Source: Gibbula magus (taxonomy: Eukaryota; Mollusca; Gastropoda; Trochida; Trochidae). From it: a stretch of 64,000 nucleotides of DNA. Shown piece after piece: positions 7,809-63,609 of the stretch (position 1 is its first letter; each line of letters opens with the position of its first letter). The notes beneath the pieces are model-generated. The model saw nothing but the letters and a program-made list of their open reading frames with translations. It had not been told where the DNA came from and ran no database searches. Where the stretch lies: positions 18,551,266 to 18,615,265 of the forward strand of contig OW388300.1 of NCBI GenBank assembly GCA_936450465.1, in the 5' to 3' direction. The position numbers and the translations under genes are program-made.

Positions 7809-8060
7809 CGCGCGACCCCAGTGATGATTCAACTTGTTAGAATAACTTGAATAATGAAAAAAATTTTGTCCCAAAAAATTTTTTTAAAAAAAATTCCCAT
7901 TTTATTTAAGCTGAGGAGAAGGCGGAACAGGGAAAGGCGAGACCCAAAGTTTCCGAGCTGCTCTGCTTTTGAGGTGTCCTGCAAACGCTCTTCTAGTTTT
8001 AAAACTGATGCACAACAGAGCCAATGGTTCAAATTTTCTATGATAACATACAAGTTAAAA
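7809..8060 (-). mobile_element. Helitron-like family F, 5'-terminal fragment
   Basis: Matches 10902-11135 nearly base for base, from GACCCCAGTGATGATTCAAC through AAACGCTCTTCTAG, and reversed at 53056-53227. Only the roughly 250-bp terminal unit is present; the tandem core and CTAA-side hairpin are missing. Similarity to the 11-kb copy continues about 50 bp past the point where the 53-kb copy stops, so the two plus-strand-read copies also share flank. Confidence 0.75.
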
Positions 8061-8374: not shown

Positions 8375-9541
8375 TTAAAATGATATTTGTGGAATAATGA
8401 TGGAATAAGAATAGATCGAAAGCCTATTATGTACAGATCATGGTATAACAAAGGTGTAATATGTATCAATGATCTGATGCACCACGAGGGTAGACTTATC
8501 AATTTTGAGGAATTCGAAAATAAATTTAAAATCCAAACCAATTTTTTAAGGTATGAAGGTATACAAAGGTCTGTTATGTCGTATATCTCTAAGTTAGATA
8601 TACAAAACATACAGAATGCTTGTCCAAATCCAATTTATCCTTTTAACCTATTTCATATTAGTGAAAAATTAGGCAGTAAATATATATACACGAAATTAAT
8701 GGATTCGAAATATGTGCAATTACCCTGTTATGGCAAATGGGCCAGAATTTTAGATTGTGAACTCTCAGAAAAGGAAAATGCATCCGTAGTACTGACTTGA
8801 AATGGCTGCAGTATAGGATTATCCATCATATTCTACCAACAAAGTGTTACTTATTCAGAATAAAGGTATCGGAAACACCACTATGTCGGTTATGTAATAA
8901 AGAATTGGAAAATTTAGAGCACTTATTTTGTTATTGTGACCCGGTTGTAAAGATTTGGAAAAGTTTAGAAAAATGGCTACAAACCGCCCAAATTCATATA
9001 AATTTAACAGAGTCAAAGATAATGCTAGGGATAAAAGGAAGGAATAACAATCCCATTAATGCTATCATTTTACTTGTAAAAGACATTATATTCAAGAACA
9101 GTCAAAAAATGAATGTTCCGAATTTTCCGTATATACTTGGCCAAATCAAGCAATATTACGACATAACGAAATGCATTTACTTAGTTTCTGGTGAGAATGA
9201 TCCATTTGTTAAATTCTGGTCATCCTTACATACCATATTGAGAAATTAAATGTTTTGATAATCGACTGTAAATTTTCTGTATTACACACAGTTTCACTTT
9301 GTACTTACAATAAGCACGTCATATTGCCAATGTTTATAATGTGCATGTACCTTAACCAATAGTATAACCTGTATAGCGCTGAAGGTCACTGTAACCTATG
9401 TATATATGTCCTGTTATTTAAATGAACAATGTTTTTTTGTTTTTTTTTACGTTTCAACTGTGAATATGATTCAAACCGAATGTATGTAAAACTTGAAAAA
9501 TATGCAAATAAAACAAAATAAAAAATTTAAAATGATATTTG
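8375..9541 (+). mobile_element. 5'-truncated Tx1/L1-like LINE with 15-bp TSD (pseudogene ORF2 end)
   Basis: The insertion body (8390-9526) is flanked by the identical 15-mer TTAAAATGATATTTG at 8375-8389 and 9527-9541. It starts directly inside the ORF2 C-terminal region (WNNDGIRIDRKPIMYRSWYN at about 8390), and continues through LKWLQYRI-type and CRLCNKELENLEHLFCYC motifs, a CCHC-like knuckle typical of the ORF2 tail. One frameshift near 8797-8800 splits the reading frame (8387-8800, then 8797-9249). The 3' UTR ends in an A-rich tail. The perfect duplication and single frame break indicate a comparatively young, dead-on-arrival insertion made by target-primed reverse transcription. Confidence 0.92.
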
Positions 9542-9910: not shown

Positions 9911-11087
9911 TTAGCAGCTCCGACTAAGTCGGAGCCGCTATCAGTTTTTGTGCAGTTTCCGTCACCGCCGCCGCCGGCTATAACTTTGCTATAACTTTTT
10001 TCCTAGAAGGTTTTGAGAACTCATATACATAACTTCTTACTTATGTCCCTGGGGAATTTATTTGACATGCTCACATTCAAGGTCAAAGGTCAAGGTCATG
10101 AGTTCTGAAATCACTACAAAAATCCTTGTAAACATGATAACTTCAACAACTTCTGTGCTTTCAGGCCCTTATTTGGAATATATCAACTATGGAGAAAGAC
10201 TGAGATTTGAAAAGGTTTTCGCTTAAATCTGTCCAAGGTCAAGGTCACAATGAGCTCTCAACTTAAGCATGCAGTTGCGAACATGCCTTATTTTAACTAT
10301 TAACACTTTGAATCATTACATGATTGTTATCCACAATGAATAGTGATCATTGACTGTGTGACCTTGAAGATCAAAGGTCAAGGTCACGAGATATGGTCAT
10401 GGTGACCAGTTGTGAAATCTCTAAATAACTTTTTTCCAAGAAGGTATTAACACCTCATATACATAGCTTCTTTCTTATAAATTTGGTGAATGATTTTGAC
10501 ATGTTCACATTCAAGGTCAAAGGTCAAGGTCATGAGTTCTTTAATTACTACAATAATCCTTGTAAACATGATAAATTCAAACATTTTTGTGCTGTCAGGC
10601 TCTTATTTGGTATAAATCAACTATGGAGAAAGACCAAGATTTGAAAACGTTTTCGCTAAAATCTGTCAAAGGTCAAGGTCACAGCAAGGTCACAACTTAA
10701 GCATGCTATTGTGAATATGCCTTATGTTAACAATGAACACTTTGAGTCATTGCATGATTGTTATACACAATGAAAAGTAATCATTGATGGTGTGACCTTG
10801 AAGGTCAAAGGTCAAGGTCATGAGATATTGGTTAAGGCCATGTTAATCCTTTGATCCAATTTTGAAATCAGAAATAGCTTTTAAGAACAATCTTGTGAAA
10901 AGTGACCCCAGTGATGATTCAACGTGTTAGAATAACTTGAATAATAAAAAAAAAATTGTCAAAAAAAATTCCCATTTTATTTATGCTGAGGAGAAGGCGG
11001 AACAGGGAAAGGCGAGACCCAAAGTTTCGGAGCTGCTCTGCTTTTGCGGAGTCCCGCAAACGCTCTTCTAGTTTTAAAACTGATGCA
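9911..11087 (-). mobile_element. Helitron-like non-autonomous element, family F, two-unit copy
   Basis: On the minus strand the 3' end reads as a 10-bp-arm hairpin (AGCTCCGACT / AGTCGGAGCT) followed a few bases later by CTAA and a host T, as expected for Helitron 3' ends. The reversed copy at 54597-54623 has the same hairpin-GCTAA-T end. The core consists of two tandem units of about 440 bp (starting near 9984 and 10425), each with clusters of AAGGTCAAAGGTCAAGGTCA. The other end (about 10900-11087) is the 250-bp terminal unit. The 5' end does not begin with the canonical TC, so assignment to classical Helitrons is uncertain. It lies immediately upstream of the DUF6119-like gene. Confidence 0.75.
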
Positions 11088-11125
11088 CAACAGAGCCAAT
11101 GGTTAAAATTTTCTATGATAACATA

Positions 11126-11152
11126 CATTTTATCTTTGTTACCAGGTTCGAA
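11126..11152 (+). other. Putative 3' splice site and start context of the DUF6119-like gene
   Basis: TTTTATCTTTGTTACCAG followed by GTTCGAAATGAG: a pyrimidine-rich run ending in CAG (AG at 11144-11145), seven bases before the ATG at 11153. This suggests an upstream non-coding exon joined by an intron that covers the end of the Helitron-like repeat. The frame is open upstream to 11099, but those 18 codons lie in repeat and intron-like sequence, so 11153 is preferred as the start. Confidence 0.5.
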
Positions 11153-13549
11153 ATGAGTTATGAGAGTGTGCCGCCAGATGGATCCTTTATGGAAGAGCTT
11201 TCTCCTCAAGTTTTAAAAGTGAAGATTCCTGCCTTGAGAATTACCAAATTACTCATTCGACGGAAGGAGAAAAATGAAAGTGCCGAAGAACATGTCAAAA
11301 AATTTATCAGGTCAACCAGGAAATTGAAAGAACGGCCCATATCGATACCATCTAATACATTTGATGTATTTCCAGCGTCATTTGAAATCAAAATATGTAC
11401 CTACACAACAAGTTCGAAGTCAGAGCTTTCAGAGTACATTGACAAACTCACAAACAACGACTCGGGGGAAAAGCAGACGATCCATTACATGATCCTGTTC
11501 TTCAGAGAGGTTCGATCAACTACTGACCCACTAGTTCCACAGATTGAAATGTACGCTCTAACTTCCGGTATAGCTCATACTTTGCTGCCTGAGAGTGAAT
11601 GTGATGAAGAGTTCCCGAAAAAGATCTCTCGTCGTCTGTTGGAATTCAACCTCAAGTCTCTCTCTTCCAAACACCTGATTGGCACCCATAGATCTTCAAG
11701 CAACACCTTCAGGCTAAATGAAGGAACAGAGTTGTCCATCTGGGACTATTTGGGTCACATCACAACCACCTTCAAGGTGCCGTTTAAAGGTGATTGCTCC
11801 CTCTGTAGGATTGGGTGCTTTCAGACGAAAAAAGGAAGACCTCGGAAAGTATCAATGACTGTAGGTATTAACTATCTGAGAGTTCACATGAAGCTGAGTT
11901 TGATCGACTTGGCCTACATCATTCAGCAGCTGTCTCGCATTGCTAGAGGAACAGTCTTTAAAAGATTTGGTTCTACAGAAGAGGAAGTGGATGACAACCG
12001 ATTTGATATACTCAGTCATGTTGAACTTGTCAAGAAAAAGAAAGTCATTGCTAGACTAGATAATCGACTGAAAAAAGACATCATCGATAGTATCAAAAAT
12101 GACGATCGTTTGAAAATATCACTTGTACACCGTAAACTAGAAGCCTGGAACAATGCAAACAGTTTTTCATTACTTTTAAAGAAAAGTTCCAACTCCCGTC
12201 CAATAAAGCTGAAGACTTGGAAAGACGTTCCACCTTTGTTCAGCGACATCGCTGAAGAAGTCAAAAAAGAATTTCCAGGTGACTCTTTGCAGAAAAATGA
12301 CTTCGACCAGCTCTACTTGAAGTTTGAGGACACTGCAAGTGGATCAAAACCGACATCGGAACCTCTGCTTCAGTTTGTGGAGAGACACGTTAGAACCTCA
12401 GATGGAAGGTCCTTTTTCCGATACTGTGGAAAATGGCTTAGGATTCGAACCGCTTATCTAAGTCAGCTTGAGGTAGAATTTACCAACATTGAAAGAGGCT
12501 GTCAAGTGGAGCAGGATATTATCCCCTTGCCCTGGATTTATTCAGGAAAGAATGCAGGAAAGGATATCAAGAGGGACAAATCAGAACGAAAGCGACCAAC
12601 TACATCAATGGATCAGACTACGTTTGAGAATTGGTGCAAAACGGTTGAACAGCAAAAGCCTGATGCCATCCAAACACAATTGACAGTAAACTTCGACAAT
12701 TATCCAAAGATGGACACAGAACCCTTGGACTGCACCAAAGAGCTGTTCTACCGGATGCACTGCCACCAGACGGAGGGGATGTTCAATGAAGGCTTTCTCT
12801 GGTACGATCATCTTGTTGGAACAACAGAAATGGGATATCTTCTTAGCGACAGGATCTTGGTGAAGCATGTGGAGTTGTATGATATTTTGCATTTCACCCC
12901 AAAGAAGACCTACCTGATCCACGTGAAAGAAGGTCTTGCGGTAACAACCAGAGATGTGTGTTCCCAGATCCGAGTGTCTGCTGATCTCCTCTTCAAGAAT
13001 ATCATCTGCAACAGTCGCTTTGAATTCCTTGAAGAGTTGTGGAGCGTTGTCACAAGATGTGAGACGGATGGATATAGGACTAAAGTGAAACAACGTTACG
13101 AACGTCTGGGGAAAATAAAGTTCTTGGATCTGTTCCAGAGAGACGAGCTTGTGTATGTCCTGGCTTATAGGGATCATAGGGAGGACAAAAACACAGCTCC
13201 ATTTGACAATTACCCCGAACACAGACTACAAGCCGCATTTGGAAACAAGTTCAAAAAAGTGAAAAAAGAGCTGTTACGAACTGGATATCTTCAAAAGTTT
13301 GATGGAACAATCAGACTCACTAACAAAATCTACTGCACTAAGGAAAAGGCAAAGCAGGAGATAAAACTGTCTACAGTTTCTGATGGTTTGAAGGCATTTA
13401 AGATCCTTCAAGAGGCGATGTCAAAACACCCATCCTTCATCGCAAAGATAGAACTAGTTCATCTCTACAATCACTTCAAGCAACTCCAGACTGCGAGCAA
13501 GAGCATGTCCCTCAAGTTATGCCGAATTGCAACTAAACTCCCTGGTTGA
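11153..13549 (+). CDS. TIGR04141/DUF6119-like protein, single exon, 798 aa
   Basis: An uninterrupted 798-codon frame, less AT-rich than its flanks. Features that recall the TIGR04141 ('sporadically distributed protein', DUF6119) family: an EMYALTSG-type segment near residues 130-140; a central segment GRPRKVSMTVG near 228; FRYCGKWLRI near 421-430, matching the family's 'G-K-W-Y' strand; and a block from NEGFLWYD (545) through YLLSDRILV, VELYDIL and LIHVKEG (589) to SADLLF, matching the family's 'YNE...LLDK...ELCDLL...LIHVK...SAELL' order. The C-terminal 200 residues are Lys-rich and shared with the broken paralogue downstream. No signal peptide or membrane segment is evident. Family biochemistry is unknown to me; members occur sporadically in bacteria, often in variable regions, and a defence role has been suspected. 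In an animal genome it may reflect an old transfer or a domesticated mobile gene. Assignment is by motif memory, not by search. Confidence 0.72.
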   Translation: MSYESVPPDGSFMEELSPQVLKVKIPALRITKLLIRRKEKNESAEEHVKKFIRSTRKLKERPISIPSNTFDVFPASFEIKICTYTTSSKSELSEYIDKLTNNDSGEKQTIHYMILFFREVRSTTDPLVPQIEMYALTSGIAHTLLPESECDEEFPKKISRRLLEFNLKSLSSKHLIGTHRSSSNTFRLNEGTELSIWDYLGHITTTFKVPFKGDCSLCRIGCFQTKKGRPRKVSMTVGINYLRVHMKLSLIDLAYIIQQLSRIARGTVFKRFGSTEEEVDDNRFDILSHVELVKKKKVIARLDNRLKKDIIDSIKNDDRLKISLVHRKLEAWNNANSFSLLLKKSSNSRPIKLKTWKDVPPLFSDIAEEVKKEFPGDSLQKNDFDQLYLKFEDTASGSKPTSEPLLQFVERHVRTSDGRSFFRYCGKWLRIRTAYLSQLEVEFTNIERGCQVEQDIIPLPWIYSGKNAGKDIKRDKSERKRPTTSMDQTTFENWCKTVEQQKPDAIQTQLTVNFDNYPKMDTEPLDCTKELFYRMHCHQTEGMFNEGFLWYDHLVGTTEMGYLLSDRILVKHVELYDILHFTPKKTYLIHVKEGLAVTTRDVCSQIRVSADLLFKNIICNSRFEFLEELWSVVTRCETDGYRTKVKQRYERLGKIKFLDLFQRDELVYVLAYRDHREDKNTAPFDNYPEHRLQAAFGNKFKKVKKELLRTGYLQKFDGTIRLTNKIYCTKEKAKQEIKLSTVSDGLKAFKILQEAMSKHPSFIAKIELVHLYNHFKQLQTASKSMSLKLCRIATKLPG

Positions 13550-15271: not shown

Positions 15272-16020
15272 ACTTATCTGGTCCGAAAGGCCCAATAGGA
15301 TTATGGCATGGCGTGGTGTCCGGCGTCCGTCCGTCCGTCCATCTGTAAACTTTTCGCTTTTTCGTCTTCTCCAGAACCACTAGAACTGGGAAGGTGAAAT
15401 TTTGTTTACAGACTCCTTGGCCAATGGGGAGTCTCAATTGTAAATTAGGTGACCCTTTGACCCCAAATATGGTAAACAAAAGTCACGACCTTATAAACCT
15501 TCTTCTCCAGTAGAAAAAGGTCTAGAAAGCTGAAATCTTGTGTACAGACTCCGCAAATGGGGATACTTAATTGTAGTTTTGGTTACCCCGTGACCACTAA
15601 TAGGGTCACAGGGGTGACAACCTATTTTTGTCTTCTTCAGAATCACTTGGTCGAGGGAGTTGAAATTTTTTGTGCAAATCCTTTGCCAATGGGGATTCTA
15701 AAATGTAAATTTTATGACCCTGTCACCCCAAATAGGGTCACAGGGGCACAATCTAAATAAACAGTACTCTTGAGATTTAATGTGCTCTTCATTCACTTCA
15801 GTGCAGAGACTAAGGGAGGGAATCCCTAATATACCAATTCCAACATGTTTTTTGAGAAATGGTTGTTGAGAAAGAGAAGTTCAGACTTGAAAAGTAAGAA
15901 TTGAGAGTCTGACAAAATTTGTATGTAATGTTTATTTTGTAAAACTTGTATGTACATTCATATAAGTAATTTTTAATATTTCATTATTAAAGCCTGATGA
16001 GCTACAGAGCCAATGGCTCT
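15272..16020 (+). mobile_element. Pearl-like tandem-core element, family G, copy 1
   Basis: 5' end CTTATCTGGTCCGAAAGGCC, then a (TCCG)n tract, TAAACTTTTCGCTTTTTCG, and about 2-3 tandem monomers of about 150 bp (CTCCAGAACCACTAGAACTG..., GGGTCACAGGGG). An A/T-rich spacer follows, and the 3' end is CCTGATGAGCTACAGAGCC plus hairpin AGAGCC-AAT-GGCTCT. The short inverted ends (AGCTCATCAGG in other copies / CCTGATGAGCT) and 3'-terminal hairpin match the architecture of 'pearl' elements and Helentron-derived HINEs in molluscs. Confidence 0.8.
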
Positions 16021-16271
16021 ACTTTTACCAGATCTAATCCAAATGGTCGGGTCTTCTACATAGCTGCTATATTACTCACAGTGCAGCTTCGGATTCAGAT
16101 TCGGAGGTTGTTGGTGATGTTAAAGTCACAGGTCCTTGTAGAACTGAAAACACATGTCCTAGCTCAAAGATTCGTTTTCTTACAGCTACCGACATATGAA
16201 TAAGTAACAACACAAGCCCCTGTGGTTAGAGTGCGTGCAGCATCAATTGCCTTCAGAATGACTTTCAGCGT
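16021..16271. other. Short spacer
   Basis: No recognisable feature between the family G element and SINE copy 1. Confidence 0.4.
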
Positions 16272-16599
16272 CTCGACATGAAATGAGTGAGTGAGTGAGT
16301 TAGGGTTAAACGCAGCTTTCAAGAGTATTTCACTTAAATCACGGCTGCTAGTATTATTGCAGGGAGAAAGCCCGCAACGCCATGTGGCTATGCATTGCGG
16401 TGAACGGCTGGAACTAGCGAACCATGGGTGGTCTATGCTGAAATTCAGTGTAGCATTCCACCCAAACCTTACTGCGTGTAGAACAGTTTTCTACTGCAGA
16501 CAAAGTTGCCGTGCCCCTGGCGGGATTCGAACCCTGGACCTCGTGATCCAAAGCCGAACGCGCTAACCACTGCGCTATCCCGCCCCCTCGACATCAAAT
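16272..16599 (-). mobile_element. tRNA-derived SINE, copy 1, with 13-bp TSD
   Basis: Reads on the minus strand. The tRNA-like head at the right (CGGGATAGCGCAGTGGTTAG with A box; GGTTCGAATCCCGCC with B box) is followed by a conserved body and ends in a (CTCA)n tail near 16285-16305. The flanks CTCGACATGAAAT (16272-16284) and CTCGACATCAAAT (16587-16599) form a target duplication with one mismatch. Confidence 0.92.
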
Positions 16600-16639
16600 C
16601 CGACAGTTTTCATAACTGGGTCTATGTTGTGGCAGACCT

Positions 16640-17710
16640 GACTCGCTTAAAACCTAGTGTCATAACACTATTGTTGGTTTCTCCCAATATAAGATGGCCA
16701 GGACTAAGCAGAATACTAAACTTGCTGCCGTGTAATACGCTAATTAACCAGCTTGGCTCCTTAAATACAAAGTCATTGAAGTGGCATTACAAGGGTTTTG
16801 TTTGGTATTTTCTATTTCGAGGATGATGTTTAAAATTATAATATCAACATCATTTTATAATCAATAATATCTTTAATATCAAAACCCACTATTGATTGCA
16901 ATTAAACCTCATCTTCAACATTATCACATATCAATTTATCCATCGTCATCAATGTAAGATGTCCTGGACATTTTGATTTTTCCATAGGAAAGCACAGTTA
17001 GATGCCAAGAAACGAAGTGACGCGTGAAACTAGTGTCTTAACAATGTTGTTGGTTTCTCTCATTTTAAGTTGGCGAGACCCGAACAGTAAACTTGCTGCC
17101 GTGTAACATTCTAATTAACCCGCTTGGCTCCTTGAATACCAAATCCTTGAAATGGTATAACACGGATATTGTTTAGTATTTGCTATTTCGATAATGATGA
17201 AAATAGTGAAACTATGTTATAATTATGTTATAATCAATAATATAAAGATTAAATCACACTATTGATAACACAGTTATCAACAGTTAACTATTATTTTATC
17301 AACTATCATCGATGGTATATGTCCTTGAAGTCTTGTTTTTTTTCCCAAAAGAAGGGACAGAGTGAATGTTGAGTGAGTGAGTGAGTTGGGGTTTAACGCC
17401 GCTTTCAAGAGTATTTCACTTATATCGCGGCTGCTAGTATTATGGCAGGCAGAAAGCCCGCAGTGCCATGTGGCTATGCACTGCGGTGAAACCTGCGAGC
17501 ATCGGCTGGAACTATCGTGGTAGGTACTACGCTGAAATCCAGTGTAGCAATGCACCCAAACCTTACTGCGTGTAGAACAGTTCTCTACTGCAGACAAAGT
17601 TGCCGTGCCCCTGGCGGGATTCAAACCCGGACCTCTTGATCCGAAGCCGAACGCGCTAACCACTGCGCTATCCCGCCCCCAGAAGGGGCAGAAAGATGCC
17701 CAGAAAATGT
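16640..17710. repeat. Tandem duplication of about 377 bp (two units)
   Basis: AACCTAGTGTCATAACACTA near 16650 is echoed by AACTAGTGTCTTAACAATG near 17028, and the units stay alignable (CTTGCTGCCGTGTAA, GCTTGGCTCCTT, long AT tail, GATGTCCT...). The second unit is interrupted near its end by SINE copy 2, after which unit sequence (GAAAGATGCCCAG) resumes. Confidence 0.8.
17350..17694 (-). mobile_element. tRNA-derived SINE, copy 2
   Basis: Complete SINE (about 17363-17680) with tRNA-like head on the right and a GAGT-repeat tail on the left. The flanks AGAAGGGACAGAG (from 17350) and AGAAGGGGCAGAA (from 17681) are a slightly diverged target duplication. The undisturbed first tandem unit at about 16985 shows the empty-site equivalent. 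Confidence 0.9.
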
Positions 17711-17835
17711 GTTATTTGAAAACAAAAACTAAAACATCTTCCATAACATAATGTCATGTAGGCGAATTATTTTCTCACAAATAACTGGATTTCAATGTAA
17801 TTGTATAATGTTAGAATAGATAATTTAATAAGGTA

Positions 17836-18373
17836 GACTTCGAGCTGCATTTGGAAGAAAGTTAAGAGAAGTGAGAAAACAACTCCTACGAAGTGGATAT
17901 CTTGAAAAGTTTGAAGAGAATATCAGACTCACTGACAAAATGTACTGAACTCAAGAACAAGCAAAACAGGAGAAAAGCTATCGCCAGTTTCTGATGGTTT
18001 GAAGGCATTTAAGATCCTTCAGGAGGCGGTGTCAGTCCACAAATCATGTATGGTCAAGATCAACTTCCCAATGCAAGGCATAACTCTTGCCAGTTTCCAT
18101 TACTGGCTGATTAAGGCCTTGCAGTATTTCCTTTAGAAATCCAGGCCCGCTATGCATTTCTGGTGCAGAAATTCACTATCTTGACACAAGAAAGCGAGGG
18201 AAATACCGCAAGGGATAAATCAACAAGTAATGCTGACTGGCAAGAGTTATGCCTTGCGTTTGGAAGTTGGGTCAAAATTGGAATCGTTCATCTTTACCAA
18301 CACTTCAAGTTGCTCCGAACTCCAAGCCAGTGCATGTCCTTGAAGGTATGAAAATTCCGACTAAACTCGCTGG
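17836..18373 (+). pseudogene. Broken 3' paralogue of the DUF6119-like gene
   Basis: Aligns with the last roughly 115 codons of the gene at 11153-13549, starting at RLRAAFGRKLREVRKQLL (gene: RLQAAFGNKFKKVKKELL) and ending at the shared stop after the ...TKLAG-like terminus. Damage visible: an in-frame TGA where the gene has a Cys codon (near 17948), a frameshift in the following CAGGAGAAAAGC stretch, and a 209-bp MITE with its target duplication. Protein-level divergence is substantial, so it is an old tandem copy, not a recent duplicate. The 5' part is absent; the break is at about 17835. Confidence 0.88.
18052..18278. mobile_element. Mutator-like MITE, family M, copy 1
   Basis: Element 18061-18269 (209 bp) with terminal inverted repeats of about 33 bp (CAACTTCCCAATGCAAGGCA and its inverse, extending through TAACTCTTGCCAG). 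The flanks GGTCAAGAT (18052-18060) and GGTCAAAAT (18270-18278) form a 9-bp target duplication with one mismatch, placed exactly where the DUF6119-like paralogue is interrupted. Nine-base duplications are characteristic of the Mutator superfamily. Confidence 0.88.
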
Positions 18374-18420
18374 TTGACAAAGAAATGAATGAGTTGCAAT
18401 AGAGATGAACAAGGTGACAT

Positions 18421-18666
18421 GAGGTGAGTTGGGGTTTAACGCCGCTTTCAAGAGTATTTCACTTATATCACGGCTGCTAGTATTATGGCAGAGAGAAAGC
18501 CCCCAACACCATGTGGCTATGCTTTGCGGTGAAACCTGCGAGCATCGGCTGAAACTAGCGAACCATGAGTGGTACTACGCTGAAATTCAGGGCAGCATTG
18601 CACCCAAACTTTACTGCGTGTAGAACAGTTCTCTACTACAGACAAAGTTGCCGTGTTCCTGGCGGT
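18421..18666 (-). mobile_element. tRNA-derived SINE, copy 3, head missing
   Basis: The body and tail match the other copies (GTTGGGGTTTAACGCCGCTT, CTACTACAGACAAAGTTGCC), but the sequence stops at CCTGGCGG, so the tRNA-like promoter region is absent (5'-truncated). Confidence 0.85.
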
Positions 18667-18971
18667 TTTTGGAATAGTTTCAAGCCAGTTTCAAAGTAAT
18701 GCACAGTACACAATAATTACAAACATTCATATGCTATGCACATTCATGGCAGTAGAACACAGATAGCAGTAAATTCATTCTAATCTAGTCGCCTTCTACA
18801 TAAAGAAATATCTTTACTTATAGGATAAGACCAATTGTAAACTTACAAACATTGACAAATGAATTAAAATGATAAAATACTAAAATGCTTAAATGTTGTG
18901 GGAAATCAATTCAAAATTAGTTAGTATCAAGTGTCATCAAACAAAAAGGATATGTGAAATGTATATAAACT

Positions 18972-19466: not shown

Positions 19467-21045
19467 ATAATAGATAAATGCAAAAATAGATAAATGTTGT
19501 CAATTCTTATAAATACATATACTCACATTTCATGTTTTCAAAAGGTTTCATTGCTCCAAATATGTAAATTTGAAAATTAGAGCTGCACTTTTTACGTGTA
19601 TGAATTCAAAGCTCAACAACATGAAAGAGACAGGAGTCAATCATAATGCCATATTGGACTCATGAAGTATAAAACGATAAGGTATTGTCGCTCGTTGGAA
19701 TCCCATTGTTTTTGTCTTCAGAAAATATTTTTGCTGACAAAATTCCGACGTTTAAAGCGATTTTGAATTATTTTATGACGTCCTACAGTAATGTTGCGTC
19801 AACAAATTTAAAAAGGTTGTATAGGTCGACGACTTTTTTTATTATTTCATTTTTTACTTTCTCATACGAAACATTGTGACCAAAGAAACTTCTTGAAAAA
19901 GCGATTTACCACCCCAAGTGTAACAGTGTATTTGTATATTTGAACAGACACATACATAAAGGCATCATACCCTGATGTATGAAATTGTGAGTACTTCACT
20001 ACAAAGCCCGTGTCTTTTATATATATTCAAACTATTTTTCGACAACAATTTTCAATTTTAAATTTTTTTTAAAATGTGGGAACATTTCTATTGCACGTCA
20101 GTATATTTTTACTGTTAAAATACATATACAAATATTGTTTAAATTATTAAGGTAAAAAATACTAATTTAGGACCATCCATTTTGACAATTTGAGCATTTG
20201 AATTAGCATAACGTATTTGATGATAATATAGGTAGTAGTAGAAACTTCTAATTTTCACTTTATGTATATGTCATGAACAAACAGTCATCAAATGTTTTAT
20301 TATACTGTCTCATGTTTGTTTATATCACGCAATATTCAAAGATCAAACTTCTTCTTGATATTGAGCTTGAGATGCCACGTATTTGATGAATGGTGTCACC
20401 TATACAATGAAATTCAGTATCTCATAAATGGTTTTACTACTTATATAAATTTAAAATCATCTTCATTTGTCTCTTGAACTTTAACAAACATCTAAGTTAC
20501 CCTTCTCATATCAGAAAATATTTCTCAAGTTAACCCTCTCCCTCTTCAATTTTACAAACGCAGATTATGATGAATTTACACACTTCCTAAAGGTTAACAT
20601 GACATCTACAGATTCCTTGGTGAATGTCCAAGGCATGCACATTAATAATATGTAGGAAAGTACCCTAGTATAGACGTTCAATGTATTAAAAGAAAATCTG
20701 CAATCAGCCATGTTTTGACCAGCCGCAATTTTTGGAGTGGGTTACGGCAGTTACCCAACACAGTGAAGTAGGGGTGATTGTCTGCACTGTTTTCCGACGG
20801 CGTCGTTTGCTCCAGTATAAGGTCAGTCTTGGGTATGGCCGTTTCCATCGCCAACACCTGTCAAGCCATGACGGCCTTTGCCAAGCAGGCTGCGATAGAG
20901 GTCAGTGCCAAAGGCCTCTGACGCGGATTTGGCTCAGTGGCGGAAAGAGTGCTGCAGCAGGTCATGCTCGAGTTAACCAACATCCAGCGGTACCGTTTTC
21001 TTTCACCTATTCTCCAGTGGGGCGTCCACCACCCGCAGACAGACT

Positions 21046-21975
21046 CTCCTTGACACTGGAGGTGGTCAGTGGATCAGATTTCATGAAACTAGCTCAAGAA
21101 GCACCATGTAAATCATGCCAACTTGATTCTGTGCATACCCGGTTATTGCGCCCTTGCCTGCCAGTTGTGACATCAGCAACTTGCTCTGTTATCAACAGTT
21201 CGCTTGACTCTGGTACAGTACCCCACAGTTTCAAGCAGGCACTCGTGACTTCAGTGCTCAAGAAACCCCTCTCTGTGGAGCTTAATAACTATAGACCCAT
21301 ATCTAACCTTTCATTTATTTATAAAATAACGGAGAAGGTTGTTTTGAAGCAACTGAATCAACATGTATCCAGAAATGATGTCACAGAACCGTTTCAATCC
21401 GCCTACAAAAAGTCCCATTCAACAGAAACTGCTCTACTAAGGGTGTACAACGATTTATCACCCAAAACTGTGTTCCACAGGAGATATCGCTTGTGGGAGA
21501 TCAAGCGATATCTCCTAGGAGATATCTTTCTGGCAGTAGATTTAGCACAATGCACTGTCACCGTCAACTACATGACATCACTTTGCATTTACGTCATCGA
21601 GTAATGACATCACAATACTATGACGTCATAAACAAGATGATGTCACAATGCTATGACTTCACCGTGCTGGACGTCAAATGGAGAGATGGGCTCAGAGATG
21701 TACACTATTTTCACTTAAACGTATTAAGAATGATTTTGGATGATAAATAGAATCTCACCCTCGTGTCTTCTGATATAAAATATATCAACACTCGTTGATA
21801 AAAGTAAAAATATCCTCGGCAAGCCTCGTATATTTTTTACTTTTATCAACTCGTGTTGATATATTTTACACTTGGGTGAGATTCTCTATGTCCTCCTATC
21901 CTTGAACAAACAGGAAGTTGTATTGCTGGTCTTGCTTGATCTCTCTGCAGCATCACCCCCTTGGAGATGAGAATA
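21046..21975 (+). pseudogene. CR1-type LINE reverse transcriptase fragment, split by family D
   Basis: The N-terminal part of a CR1-like RT: CKSCQLDSVHTRLLRPCLP (near 21110), NNYRPISNLSFIYKITEKVV (near 21285) and PFQSAYKKSHSTETALLRVY (near 21390). After family D copy 2, the same domain resumes at about 21900 with NKQEVVLLVLLDLSAA, which is RT motif A including its catalytic Asp. The fragment ends soon after. Upstream endonuclease and the rest of the RT are absent. Confidence 0.85.
21465..21893 (+). mobile_element. Hairpin-ended element, family D, copy 2 (nested in CR1)
   Basis: Starts CCCAAAACTGTGTTCCACAG followed by the ATATCGCTTG/CAAGCGATAT palindrome, has the ATGACATCACAATACTATGA body and ends in the large palindrome (21751-21893). 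It interrupts a CR1 RT frame between the HSTETALLRVYNDL segment and motif A, which shows it is mobile. Confidence 0.85.
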
Positions 21976-21990
21976 ATAATACATAATAAT

Positions 21991-22300
21991 GTGAGGTTAG
22001 GTGATTTGACGCCGCTTTCAAGAGTATTTCACTTATATCGAGGCTGCTAGTAGTATGACAGGGAGAAAGCCCGCAACGCCATGTGGCTATGCATTGCGGT
22101 GAAACCTGCGAGCAACGGCTGGAACTAGCGAACCATCGGTAGTACTACGCTGAAATTCAGTGTAGCATTGCACCCAAACCTTACTGCGTGTAGAACAGTT
22201 CTCTACTGCAGACAAAGTTGCCGTGCACCTGGCGGGATTCGAACCCCGGACCTCTTGATCCGAAGCCGAACGCGCTAACCACTGCGCTATCCCGCCCCCC
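21991..22300 (-). mobile_element. tRNA-derived SINE, copy 4
   Basis: Full-length, with tRNA-like head at the right (boxes as in copy 1, GGTTCGAATCCCGCC). Its head directly abuts the point where the neighbouring minus-strand LINE RT breaks off. No clear target duplication was seen. Confidence 0.9.
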
Positions 22301-61973: not shown

Positions 61974-63180
61974 ATGTGGTTCCTAAGGGACAGAACAGGA
62001 ACAGCTATCAGAGAGGGTCAAATACCCGGGGAAGGGGTCAGAACTTTCGGGGTGGTCCCGGCAGAGACCAAGACCCTCCAAGGAAAAATTGACTCAACCC
62101 AACACTCTCTGAACACCATGCATTTCGACTTGGAAACGCCCCCGGACAACTATTTAGTTCTGCGATTTTCAACCCACGTTATAGAATCCCCAGTTGGAGG
62201 TCGGCTCAGGCACTTCCGGGAAAATTGGAAAGCCATCACAAACAATCCTTGGATTTTGAAGGTGATGGGCAACGGATACAAACTTCAATGGGAGAGAACC
62301 CCGCCCTTAACTATCCATCCAACGGGCAATCGGTTCTTTCTTCAGGGAGTAAAACTAGAAGTGGCACTAACTTCCATTCAACAGTTGTTAGACAAGGAAG
62401 CAATTCGACAATTACCGGAGTCAGACAGCTCTCAGGGGTTCTTCTCGCCAATATTTCTAATTCCCAAGAGAGACTCTCAGGAGTTACGAATGATTATAGA
62501 CCTGAAGATATTGAACAAACAATTCCTCAAGAGACCTCCGTCCTTCACCATGGAATCTCTAAAGAACATTCGGAAACTTGTTTTACCCAACATGTTCCTC
62601 ATAAGCATAGATCTGAAAGATGCTTATCTTCATGTGCCCATTCACCCAAGGTCCAGGATATATCTCCAGGTTGCCATCAATGGCCGGAGGTTCAAGTTCC
62701 AAGTTTTACCATTCGGGATTTCAATTGCCCCCTGGTGTTTCACCAAGTTAATGAATCCAGTACTCAGGATACTGCTTCAGGAACATATCCAGATATTTGG
62801 GTACCTCGACGATTTTCTGGCGGGAAATCAACAACAGACAATGCTACACAAACAGACGTTGTTTATCATACAAGTGTTTTCTCATCTTGGATTCATAGTC
62901 CATCCCGGGAAGTCAGAACTAGTACCAACCAGGACCATCAAATACATAGATTCGGAGAAGGGCAGGATATTCACTCCGGAATCCAAATGGAGAGAGATAT
63001 GTCTCAAGATAGAGAAAGTGGTCAGCGCACACTCAGCCTCAATCAGGGTTTGGAAGTCTCTGATTGGATCTCTGTCAGCAATTCAGGACTGGACATTGCG
63101 GGGGCGCCTACAGTTGAGAAGCTGTCAGTATTGGATAAACCAATTCAAAAACATGCAATTTGACCAGCATGTTTTGAGAG
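61974..63180 (+). pseudogene. DIRS-type element 2: reverse transcriptase
   Basis: RT domain with SPIFLIPKRDSQELRMIIDL (motif 1-2 region), LISIDLKDAYLHVPIHP (motif A with catalytic Asp, about residues 210-226 from Met 61974), FQVLPFGISIAPWCFTKLM (motif B) and FGYLDDFLAG (YLDD, residues about 277-280), followed by the connection WKSLIGSLSAIQDWTLRGRL. Open for about 400 codons. The correct frame then shifts near 63175-63185 into the RNase H frame. The frame is intact enough to suggest a moderately young insertion. Confidence 0.88.
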
Positions 63181-63186
63181 ACTCGA

Positions 63187-63474
63187 GTGGTTTGCAGGGG
63201 TCTAATTTGGTGGTTGATCAAGGACAACATTCTATCAGGGGTTCCCCTAGTTCACCCAGACGCTCACATGACACTCTACTCAGATGCATCAATCTCGGGT
63301 TGGGGAGCGCATGTGGGATCAATGATGGTTCAAGGAGTTTGGTCGTCAACCGAGAGCCAGTTCCACATAAACGGTCTCGAGTTACTGGCGGTTCTCAAGG
63401 CTCTACAGGCGTGGAGAGAGCAACTAGCAGTAGGCCAGTGGAAAAGCCTGAAAACCCGGACATTTTACCTAACA
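63187..63474 (+). pseudogene. DIRS-type element 2: RNase H, truncated
   Basis: In the +1-shifted frame: GVPLVHPDAHMTLYSDASIS (first Asp), GWGAHVGSMMVQGVWSSTES, HINGLELLAVLKAL (Glu). The domain stops after about 90 residues, and AT-rich DNA follows from about 63475. The linker, tyrosine recombinase and terminal repeats are absent from the window, so the element is 3'-truncated here. Confidence 0.85.
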
Positions 63475-63609
63475 ACCAAATTGTATGTTGATTCATGTAA
63501 TACCAATTTTAACACAGACAATTAATAGAATATTAGACACAGAATTTATTTTATCATCAAAGCCGCTTTTTTCACTCATGTTTCAAGGTCAACTTCAGTT
63601 CCTACCATA

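Follow-up and report, generated by a model that had tools for sequence, protein, structure and literature searches.

A tandem family of DUF6119/TIGR04141 genes, probably of bacterial origin and predicted to encode DNA nucleases, in the snail Gibbula magus

The window analysed here is a stretch of 64,000 nucleotides from the snail Gibbula magus (GenBank assembly GCA_936450465.1, contig OW388300.1, positions 18,551,266 to 18,615,265 of the forward strand), part of the 76 Mb contig C12 in an assembly of 1.47 Gb and 140 contigs. A single long intact gene lies in the window, at 11153-13549 on the + strand, and encodes a protein of 798 amino acids (aa) of the DUF6119/TIGR04141 family in one unbroken frame. 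The explanation that we favour, with reasonable rather than high confidence, is that the animal branch of this family, which is otherwise known mainly from bacteria and archaea, is of bacterial origin, has gained an intron in the 5' untranslated region (UTR), has expanded in tandem, and encodes a predicted DNA nuclease. A bacterial DUF6119 gene was likely captured by an animal lineage, likely gained a eukaryotic gene structure in the form of the predicted 5'-UTR intron, and was likely duplicated in tandem to form a gene cluster.

Family membership and coding frame of the snail gene

Two family profiles match the window protein above their cut-offs: DUF6119 from Pfam (PF19614) scores 58.7 bits (E=5.7e-16, cut-off 27) over residues 83-678, and TIGR04141 from NCBIfam ('sporadically distributed protein') scores 46 bits (E=2.7e-12, cut-off 35). 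An initial reading of the sequence alone (hereafter the sequence-only reading) had proposed this likeness and had singled out residues of about 420-620, which the Pfam match spans; it would have been undone by a different eukaryotic family, and no other family in Pfam or NCBIfam exceeds its cut-off for the protein. The segment LIHVK, placed by the same reading near residue 589, was found at residues 588-592. The PF19614 cut-off is also passed by the paralogues L163 (49.7 bits) and L169 (81.5 bits), and no match was obtained for the paralogue L168 or for the abalone protein P0001.

The animal proteins share with the rest of the family the HVK block and an invariant E, E, D, K and Q, but differ in length (about 800-1000 aa, compared with mostly 510-660 in the prokaryotic set), in carrying 'RD(V/A)CSQ' where prokaryotes commonly have 'LSHLFxQG', in possessing an extra winged-helix-like insert, and in forming a multi-copy family inside an animal. 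The type I restriction subunit domains (HsdR, HsdM, HsdS) are absent from the window protein, for which DUF6119 alone is above cut-off in Pfam. No family of PADLOC-DB 2.0.0 and, by sequence, no solved structure in the PDB matched it at E up to 1, and PHROGs gave nothing useful. Searches by tblastn gave no match in plasmids and, in phages, one row from a Gordonia phage at E=9, taken as chance; the animal alignment A1, used to search viral contigs, gave nothing useful. In the papers searched, DUF6119 is mentioned in a single one, which by its title deals with wheat MADS-box genes, and TIGR04141 nowhere; titles and opening parts of abstracts on horizontal transfer in abalone (Haliotis), restriction endonucleases, transfer of defence genes, and rotifers contained nothing on the DUF6119 family.

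As the sequence-only reading had described, the coding part lacks introns, its 798 codons running uninterrupted, and no second long intact gene was found in the window. An upstream in-frame ATG at 11099 would give 816 aa; the start at 11153, which gives 798 aa, is preferred because its relatives in abalone start there (P0002, P0003 and P0005 share the position in the alignment, with 'MSLES/MSLDS') and because an acceptor-like tract ending at 11145 precedes it. This tract, which recurs as ...TT(T)GTTnnCAG a few bases ahead of the start in all five distinct copies of the snail gene cluster described below, is predicted from its sequence to be the end of a 5'-UTR intron. The gene has a GC content of 0.42, compared with 0.32-0.35 in most flanking kilobases; the earlier remark that it is less AT-rich than its surroundings is correct for the immediate flanks, and some other kilobases of the window are equally high in GC.

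A predicted nuclease fold with conserved putative catalytic residues

Of the 20 best VIA rows for the structure model of a bacterial family member (pLDDT 91.8, pTM 0.86), 13 are nuclease, Hachiman or CdiA-CT toxin entries, which we take, by title or from general knowledge, to be nucleases. For the model of the window protein (pLDDT 78.2), the top six rows are made up of five Nt.BspD6I (nickase) entries and R.BspD6I2. Structural matches to PD-(D/E)XK nucleases (EndoMS/NucS, HamA of Hachiman, Nt.BspD6I/R.BspD6I2, McrC, and SduA of Shedu) are middling; the likeness lies in the predicted alpha-beta-beta-beta-alpha-beta core of the family, a D followed by xK, and a Q in the next helix. The PD-(D/E)XK pattern of a conserved acid plus xK, a motif I E, and a motif IV Q is present in the family. 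The first bacterial set was picked with a DNA pattern for HVK...HLFxQG, so that invariance at those letters is built in by construction; genomes found with the Pfam profile and with profile A9 were therefore added, and their rows used for the residue counts. E541, E574, D577 and K592 are kept in 34/34 rows (13 animal rows and 21 prokaryotic rows not chosen by motif) and Q605 in 33/34, the exception being paralogue L163, which has E. Between the window protein and the bacterial rows, identity is 13-19%.

The D/E expected two residues before the catalytic K is missing, its place being taken by H in 13/13 animal rows and by H, L, Q, A or F in prokaryotes. Because of this difference, the family is described here as working like PD-(D/E)XK nucleases and is not filed as a member of them. 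Family membership, the intact copies, purifying selection in the cluster, the position in the tree, the bacterial neighbourhoods and the conserved residues are direct results of the analysis; the fold class, catalysis, substrate and animal role given here are those that we infer. An insert of about 77 residues separates the last core elements of the animal proteins when these are compared with the bacterial proteins L195 and L202; helices and a short hairpin are predicted within it, and from this predicted secondary structure it may be winged-helix-like.

The animal proteins might alternatively keep the fold without a cutting activity, whether this was lost or never present, and bind DNA through the clamp-like N-terminal part and the winged-helix-like insert as sensors or chromatin factors, a possibility to which we give real but limited weight. 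The H in place of the motif III acid, the change of Q605 to E in L163, the fairly high ratio of nonsynonymous to synonymous divergence (dN/dS) among the snail copies, and the extra insert are all in its favour. When catalysis is lost, however, catalytic residues are usually free to change, and E541, E574, D577 and K592 are unchanged in 13/13 animal rows despite the low identity to bacteria.

Some prokaryotic relatives lie in or next to restriction loci

Among prokaryotic members of the family, a type I restriction-type protein lies within two predicted open reading frames (ORFs) of the DUF6119 gene at 23/112 loci. These proteins, 32 in three similarity clusters, were labelled from eight checked members, 8/8 of which are HsdR, HsdS or HsdM/N6-methylase; unchecked cluster members may include other helicases or methylases. 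Such adjacency is probably far above chance, judged from the general rarity of these genes. A tally over 123 ORFs next to DUF6119 genes, drawn from no more than 75 loci and covering the best 25 of 62 Pfam and the best 25 of 322 PADLOC families, gave among the matches listed up to nine PADLOC type I restriction subunits, seven methylases and six specificity subunits, as well as five ORFs matching the PADLOC mad2 model; the Pfam matches listed include HSDR_N (7), Methylase_S (5), N6_Mtase (4), and one each of BrxL, AbiH and ApeA.

The gene order is hsdM-hsdS-DUF6119-hsdR on one strand at L083 and L135 and hsdS-DUF6119-hsdR at L067, with frames that touch or slightly overlap around DUF6119 in each (the three L083 genes and hsdR of L135 were named by Pfam, and the remainder by cluster). 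In some type I restriction-modification operons DUF6119 separates hsdS from hsdR, but it is none of the three subunits of these systems, and at 89/112 loci no type I protein was found within two predicted ORFs, although the loci often end early. Other members adjoin integrases, identified by Pfam and in some cases by eye.

A block resembling that of the animal proteins follows HVK in a few bacteria, where most have 'SHLFxQG': L195, from the Actinomycetota sample, has 'QVKDGFGASIRDACSQ', and L216-L218, from Bacteroidota, have 'HVKKGFNNSMRDLCAQ' and alike; in L202, from the Planctomycetota sample, the block is less clear. L195 belongs to a run of six co-directional genes that includes two N6/N4 DNA methylases, and adjoins an AlwI-type restriction enzyme. 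L217 has as its neighbour an Alw26I-type enzyme, beyond which lies a C5 methylase, L218 adjoins putAbiC, and L216 adjoins a KAP NTPase. In bacteria, DUF6119 likely supplies restriction-modification loci with an accessory or alternative nuclease, and the defensive role there that the sequence-only reading had raised as an "if" has its support in these gene neighbourhoods.

The animal branch is probably nested among prokaryotic sequences

A phylogenetic tree was built from 53 rows (13 animal, 18 found by profile, three from Bacteroidota, and 19 found by DNA pattern) and is unrooted, with no outgroup. All animal rows group together (100/99), with bacterial L195 as their sister (99/94), and L202 and L216-L218 join the animals and L195 at 100/99. 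The same nesting, at weaker support (91, 93, 89), was seen in a rapid tree that included L195, L201 and L202, and in an earlier tree without the animal-type bacterial relatives the animals sat on a long branch of their own. Unless the animal stem carries the root, which is unlikely because the prokaryotic spread is wide, if sparse, the animal clade is nested within prokaryotic diversity. This sister relationship to L195, inside a wider bacterial clade, agrees with the metazoan-among-bacterial topology that the sequence-only reading had anticipated, and a bacterial source of the snail genes is likely.

At least 118 loci, spread over many bacterial phyla and including two archaeal ones (L118 and L141), came from the DNA-pattern scan of GTDB contigs, and 112 of them have an in-frame ORF with the motif. 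The remaining six were left out, as were 20 of the 112 outside 480-700 aa; close bacteria were thinned from 92 to 76, every second row was then taken, twice, and L203 and L204 (short) and L171 (near-identical to L170) were dropped. With the Pfam profile, the family was found in 7/299 sampled genomes of Pseudomonadota (the phylum of L083), 6/296 of Actinomycetota (that of L115) and 9/294 of Planctomycetota (that of L066), counts that include in each phylum a centre genome chosen for having the gene; 0/14 control genomes were positive, the 11 named controls being prokaryotes. These sparse counts agree with the patchy distribution that the sequence-only reading had ascribed to the family. Animal-type members (L216-L218) were found with profile A9 in 3/345 Bacteroidota genomes and, among 35 genomes of the order of L195, in that of L195 alone; the L195 protein has no relatives in the viral contigs, plasmids and phages searched.

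Searches of 5.8 billion proteins with a shared-word method returned no bacterial member, and are therefore blind to distant relatives. All six named relatives that they gave are from abalone: Haliotis asinina (one), H. rufescens (three) and H. cracherodii (two). P0001 from H. asinina exhibits 34% identity over 85% of the window protein and at most 36% to the snail genome, and the H. rufescens and H. cracherodii proteins exhibit 47-53% identity over its last 269 residues. A query of residues 530-798 gave five further abalone proteins but not P0001, and the two other searches gave P0001 alone, perhaps because search words come from the first 500 residues. The last ~190 residues of P0001 form a repetitive charged tail of imperfect SSHSSPEYxxxxKPNKRTHDSERSRS repeats, found in none of the other aligned animal proteins.

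Vertical descent of an ancient eukaryotic gene that was lost nearly everywhere would suit the lack of an outgroup root and the long animal stem, and searches that missed bacterial members could miss eukaryotic copies too. We nevertheless consider it unlikely, given that searches on this scale gave abalone proteins only, that the sister sequence is bacterial, that the prokaryotic spread is sporadic and partly in restriction loci, and that many independent losses in eukaryotes would be required.

A tandem cluster of intact copies under purifying selection

A six-frame search of the snail genome, in which copy counts are lower bounds, found at least eight intact ORFs: six on C12 within 364 kb (18.562-18.927 Mb) and two on contig C8. 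The other C12 copies compare with the window gene at 77%, 82-84% (two copies), 86%, and 85% (on the opposite strand); the C8 copies are diverged (23-31% identity in pieces), and their intact ORFs encode 1006 and 891 aa. Whole-gene dN/dS is 0.31-0.57 in 10/10 pairs of the five distinct cluster copies, which are not independent pairs, with bootstrap upper bounds of at most 0.74, and for half-genes 1/20 ranges exceeds 1 (L160-L163, C-terminal part, 0.38-1.18); these estimates cover the cluster copies, the C8 pair being too diverged. The cluster copies are under purifying selection, and as far as sequence tells this is a working animal gene family. A transfer followed by local expansion, one of the options originally put forward, fits the six-gene cluster and the two diverged copies.

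The same reading had placed a diverged paralogue 4 kb from the window gene; this proved to be a decayed 3' fragment, and the intact paralogues sit outside the window. At least three such fragments exist on C12, each downstream of a C12 gene, as if gene and fragment had been duplicated as one unit. They lie 4-11 kb downstream of three cluster genes (window 17835-18348, C12:18635860 and C12:18749020).

A mobile gene, also among the options originally put forward, was not borne out; that the gene belongs to a mobile element (a transposon or integrated-virus enzyme) and is intact by chance appears very unlikely. Reverse-transcriptase debris and SINE-like repeats do surround it, bacterial members too adjoin integrases, and a direct repeat of 40 nt (11073-11112 and 15987-16026, 78%) lies on both sides of it. 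That repeat, however, reads as the 5' flank of a broken second copy, and no further bracketing pair occurs among the repeats listed; at least eight intact copies and at least three 3' fragments are known, most in one cluster, their common upstream flanks point to segmental duplication, and the 5' splice-like site is conserved. Bacterial contamination or assembly error, to which the intron-free coding frame alone might point, can be set aside, as eight copies lie on two contigs 76 and 80 Mb long, animal-type repeats flank the gene on both sides and the window contains retroelement debris, and in three named abalone species related genes have been annotated, on contigs as long as 102 Mb.

Two cluster copies, L170 and L171 (C12:18679054 and C12:18688280), lie 9.2 kb apart and differ by one codon (dN 0.001, all synonymous sites the same), with 1500 bp upstream identical; they represent either a tandem duplication of very recent date or a duplicate introduced by assembly. 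Their start ATG is altered, and a later ATG would serve. In some pairs, synonymous divergence is unequal in the two halves of the gene, for L160 and L163 strongly so (0.457 in the N-terminal and 0.128 in the C-terminal half), which suggests gene conversion in the cluster.

Possible role in the animal

In the favoured account of a captured bacterial nuclease, DNA would be held by the N-terminal part, which is RdgC-like in models, and cleaved by the C-terminal PD-(D/E)XK-like domain, whose metal site would consist of E541, E574, D577 and K592, with help from Q605. The insert would offer a new DNA- or partner-binding surface in the animal, where the likely task of the protein would be to cleave foreign DNA, viral or mobile. 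A more speculative extension, which we put forward tentatively, is that the snail lineage turned a restriction-system nuclease into tandem nuclear restriction factors that confer cell-intrinsic immunity to DNA viruses or transposons with no companion methylase: the clamp-like part would load onto DNA, the insert would read some feature that marks DNA as foreign or unpackaged, and cutting would fall to the restriction-type domain. A search of the animal genome, where introns could conceal one, gave no PF01555-type methylase (11/14 control genomes were positive), so that self-protection, if needed, must work some other way.

Bacterial defence genes have repeatedly been drawn into animal and other eukaryotic immunity, as described for CD-NTases (cGAS-like enzymes) and for viperins in algae (PMC10732462), and a DNA methylase, N4CMT of bdelloid rotifers, was captured from bacteria by an animal (PMC8885841). 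N4CMT resembles the snail family as an animal capture of a bacterial-type DNA-modifying enzyme, but is a methylase of another family with a demonstrated role, whereas DUF6119 is a predicted nuclease. A captured nuclease related to restriction loci, in eight intact copies, would differ in kind from the CD-NTase, viperin and methylase captures, and raises the question of how an animal nucleus could hold a restriction-type nuclease without cutting its own DNA. The present analysis also supplies a structural and mechanistic hypothesis for DUF6119/TIGR04141.

Features of the window and minor observations

The features of the gene and its flanks are collected in Table 1.

Table 1. Coordinates of the snail DUF6119/TIGR04141 gene, its predicted parts and related flanking sequences in the window
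Feature	Position	Strand	Remarks
Intact DUF6119/TIGR04141 coding sequence	11153..13549	+	798 aa; stop codon included
Splice-acceptor-like pyrimidine-rich tract ending CAG	11127..11145	+	7 bases before ATG; kept in 5/5 distinct cluster copies
N-terminal region	11225..11950 (residues 25-266)	+	weakly Iml3/RdgC-like in model
C-terminal PD-(D/E)XK-nuclease-like region	12710..13546 (residues 520-798)	+	
E541, invariant acid	12773..12775	+	in helix before core sheet
E574 and D577 (ExxD), invariant acids	12872..12883	+	
H590-V591-K592	12920..12928	+	K invariant; some prokaryotes have L, Q, A or F for H
Q605	12965..12967	+	E in paralogue L163
Helix-rich insert with short beta-hairpin	13190..13423 (~residues 680-757)	+	in aligned animal proteins; not in L195, L202
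Broken 3' fragment of second copy	17835..18348	+	residues 691-789 in pieces; in-frame stop
Partial duplicate of the 5' flank of the gene (10904-11127)	7814..8052	+	89.5% identical; no coding part; 3 kb upstream

Reverse-transcriptase remains lie in the window at 8797-9249, 20732-21604 and 61974-63491, with a zf-RVT match (2.5e-7) and RVT_1 matches (4.2e-7 and 1.2e-20, the latter in a 505-aa open frame). Four copies of a repeat resembling a tRNA-derived short interspersed nuclear element (SINE) occupy parts of 16284-18729 and 21983-22299, one with a weak Rfam tRNA match at 17614-17670. Among the prokaryotic loci, the DUF6119 gene of L059 (183-1751) lies in two frames and that of L117 has a stop within the motif, which are decaying copies or sequencing errors. 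On the viral contig L005 (2659-3579), a SocA_Panacea antitoxin-like gene and a 137-aa gene lie upstream of a DUF6119 gene, and integrase-like ORFs, identified by eye, flank both sides.
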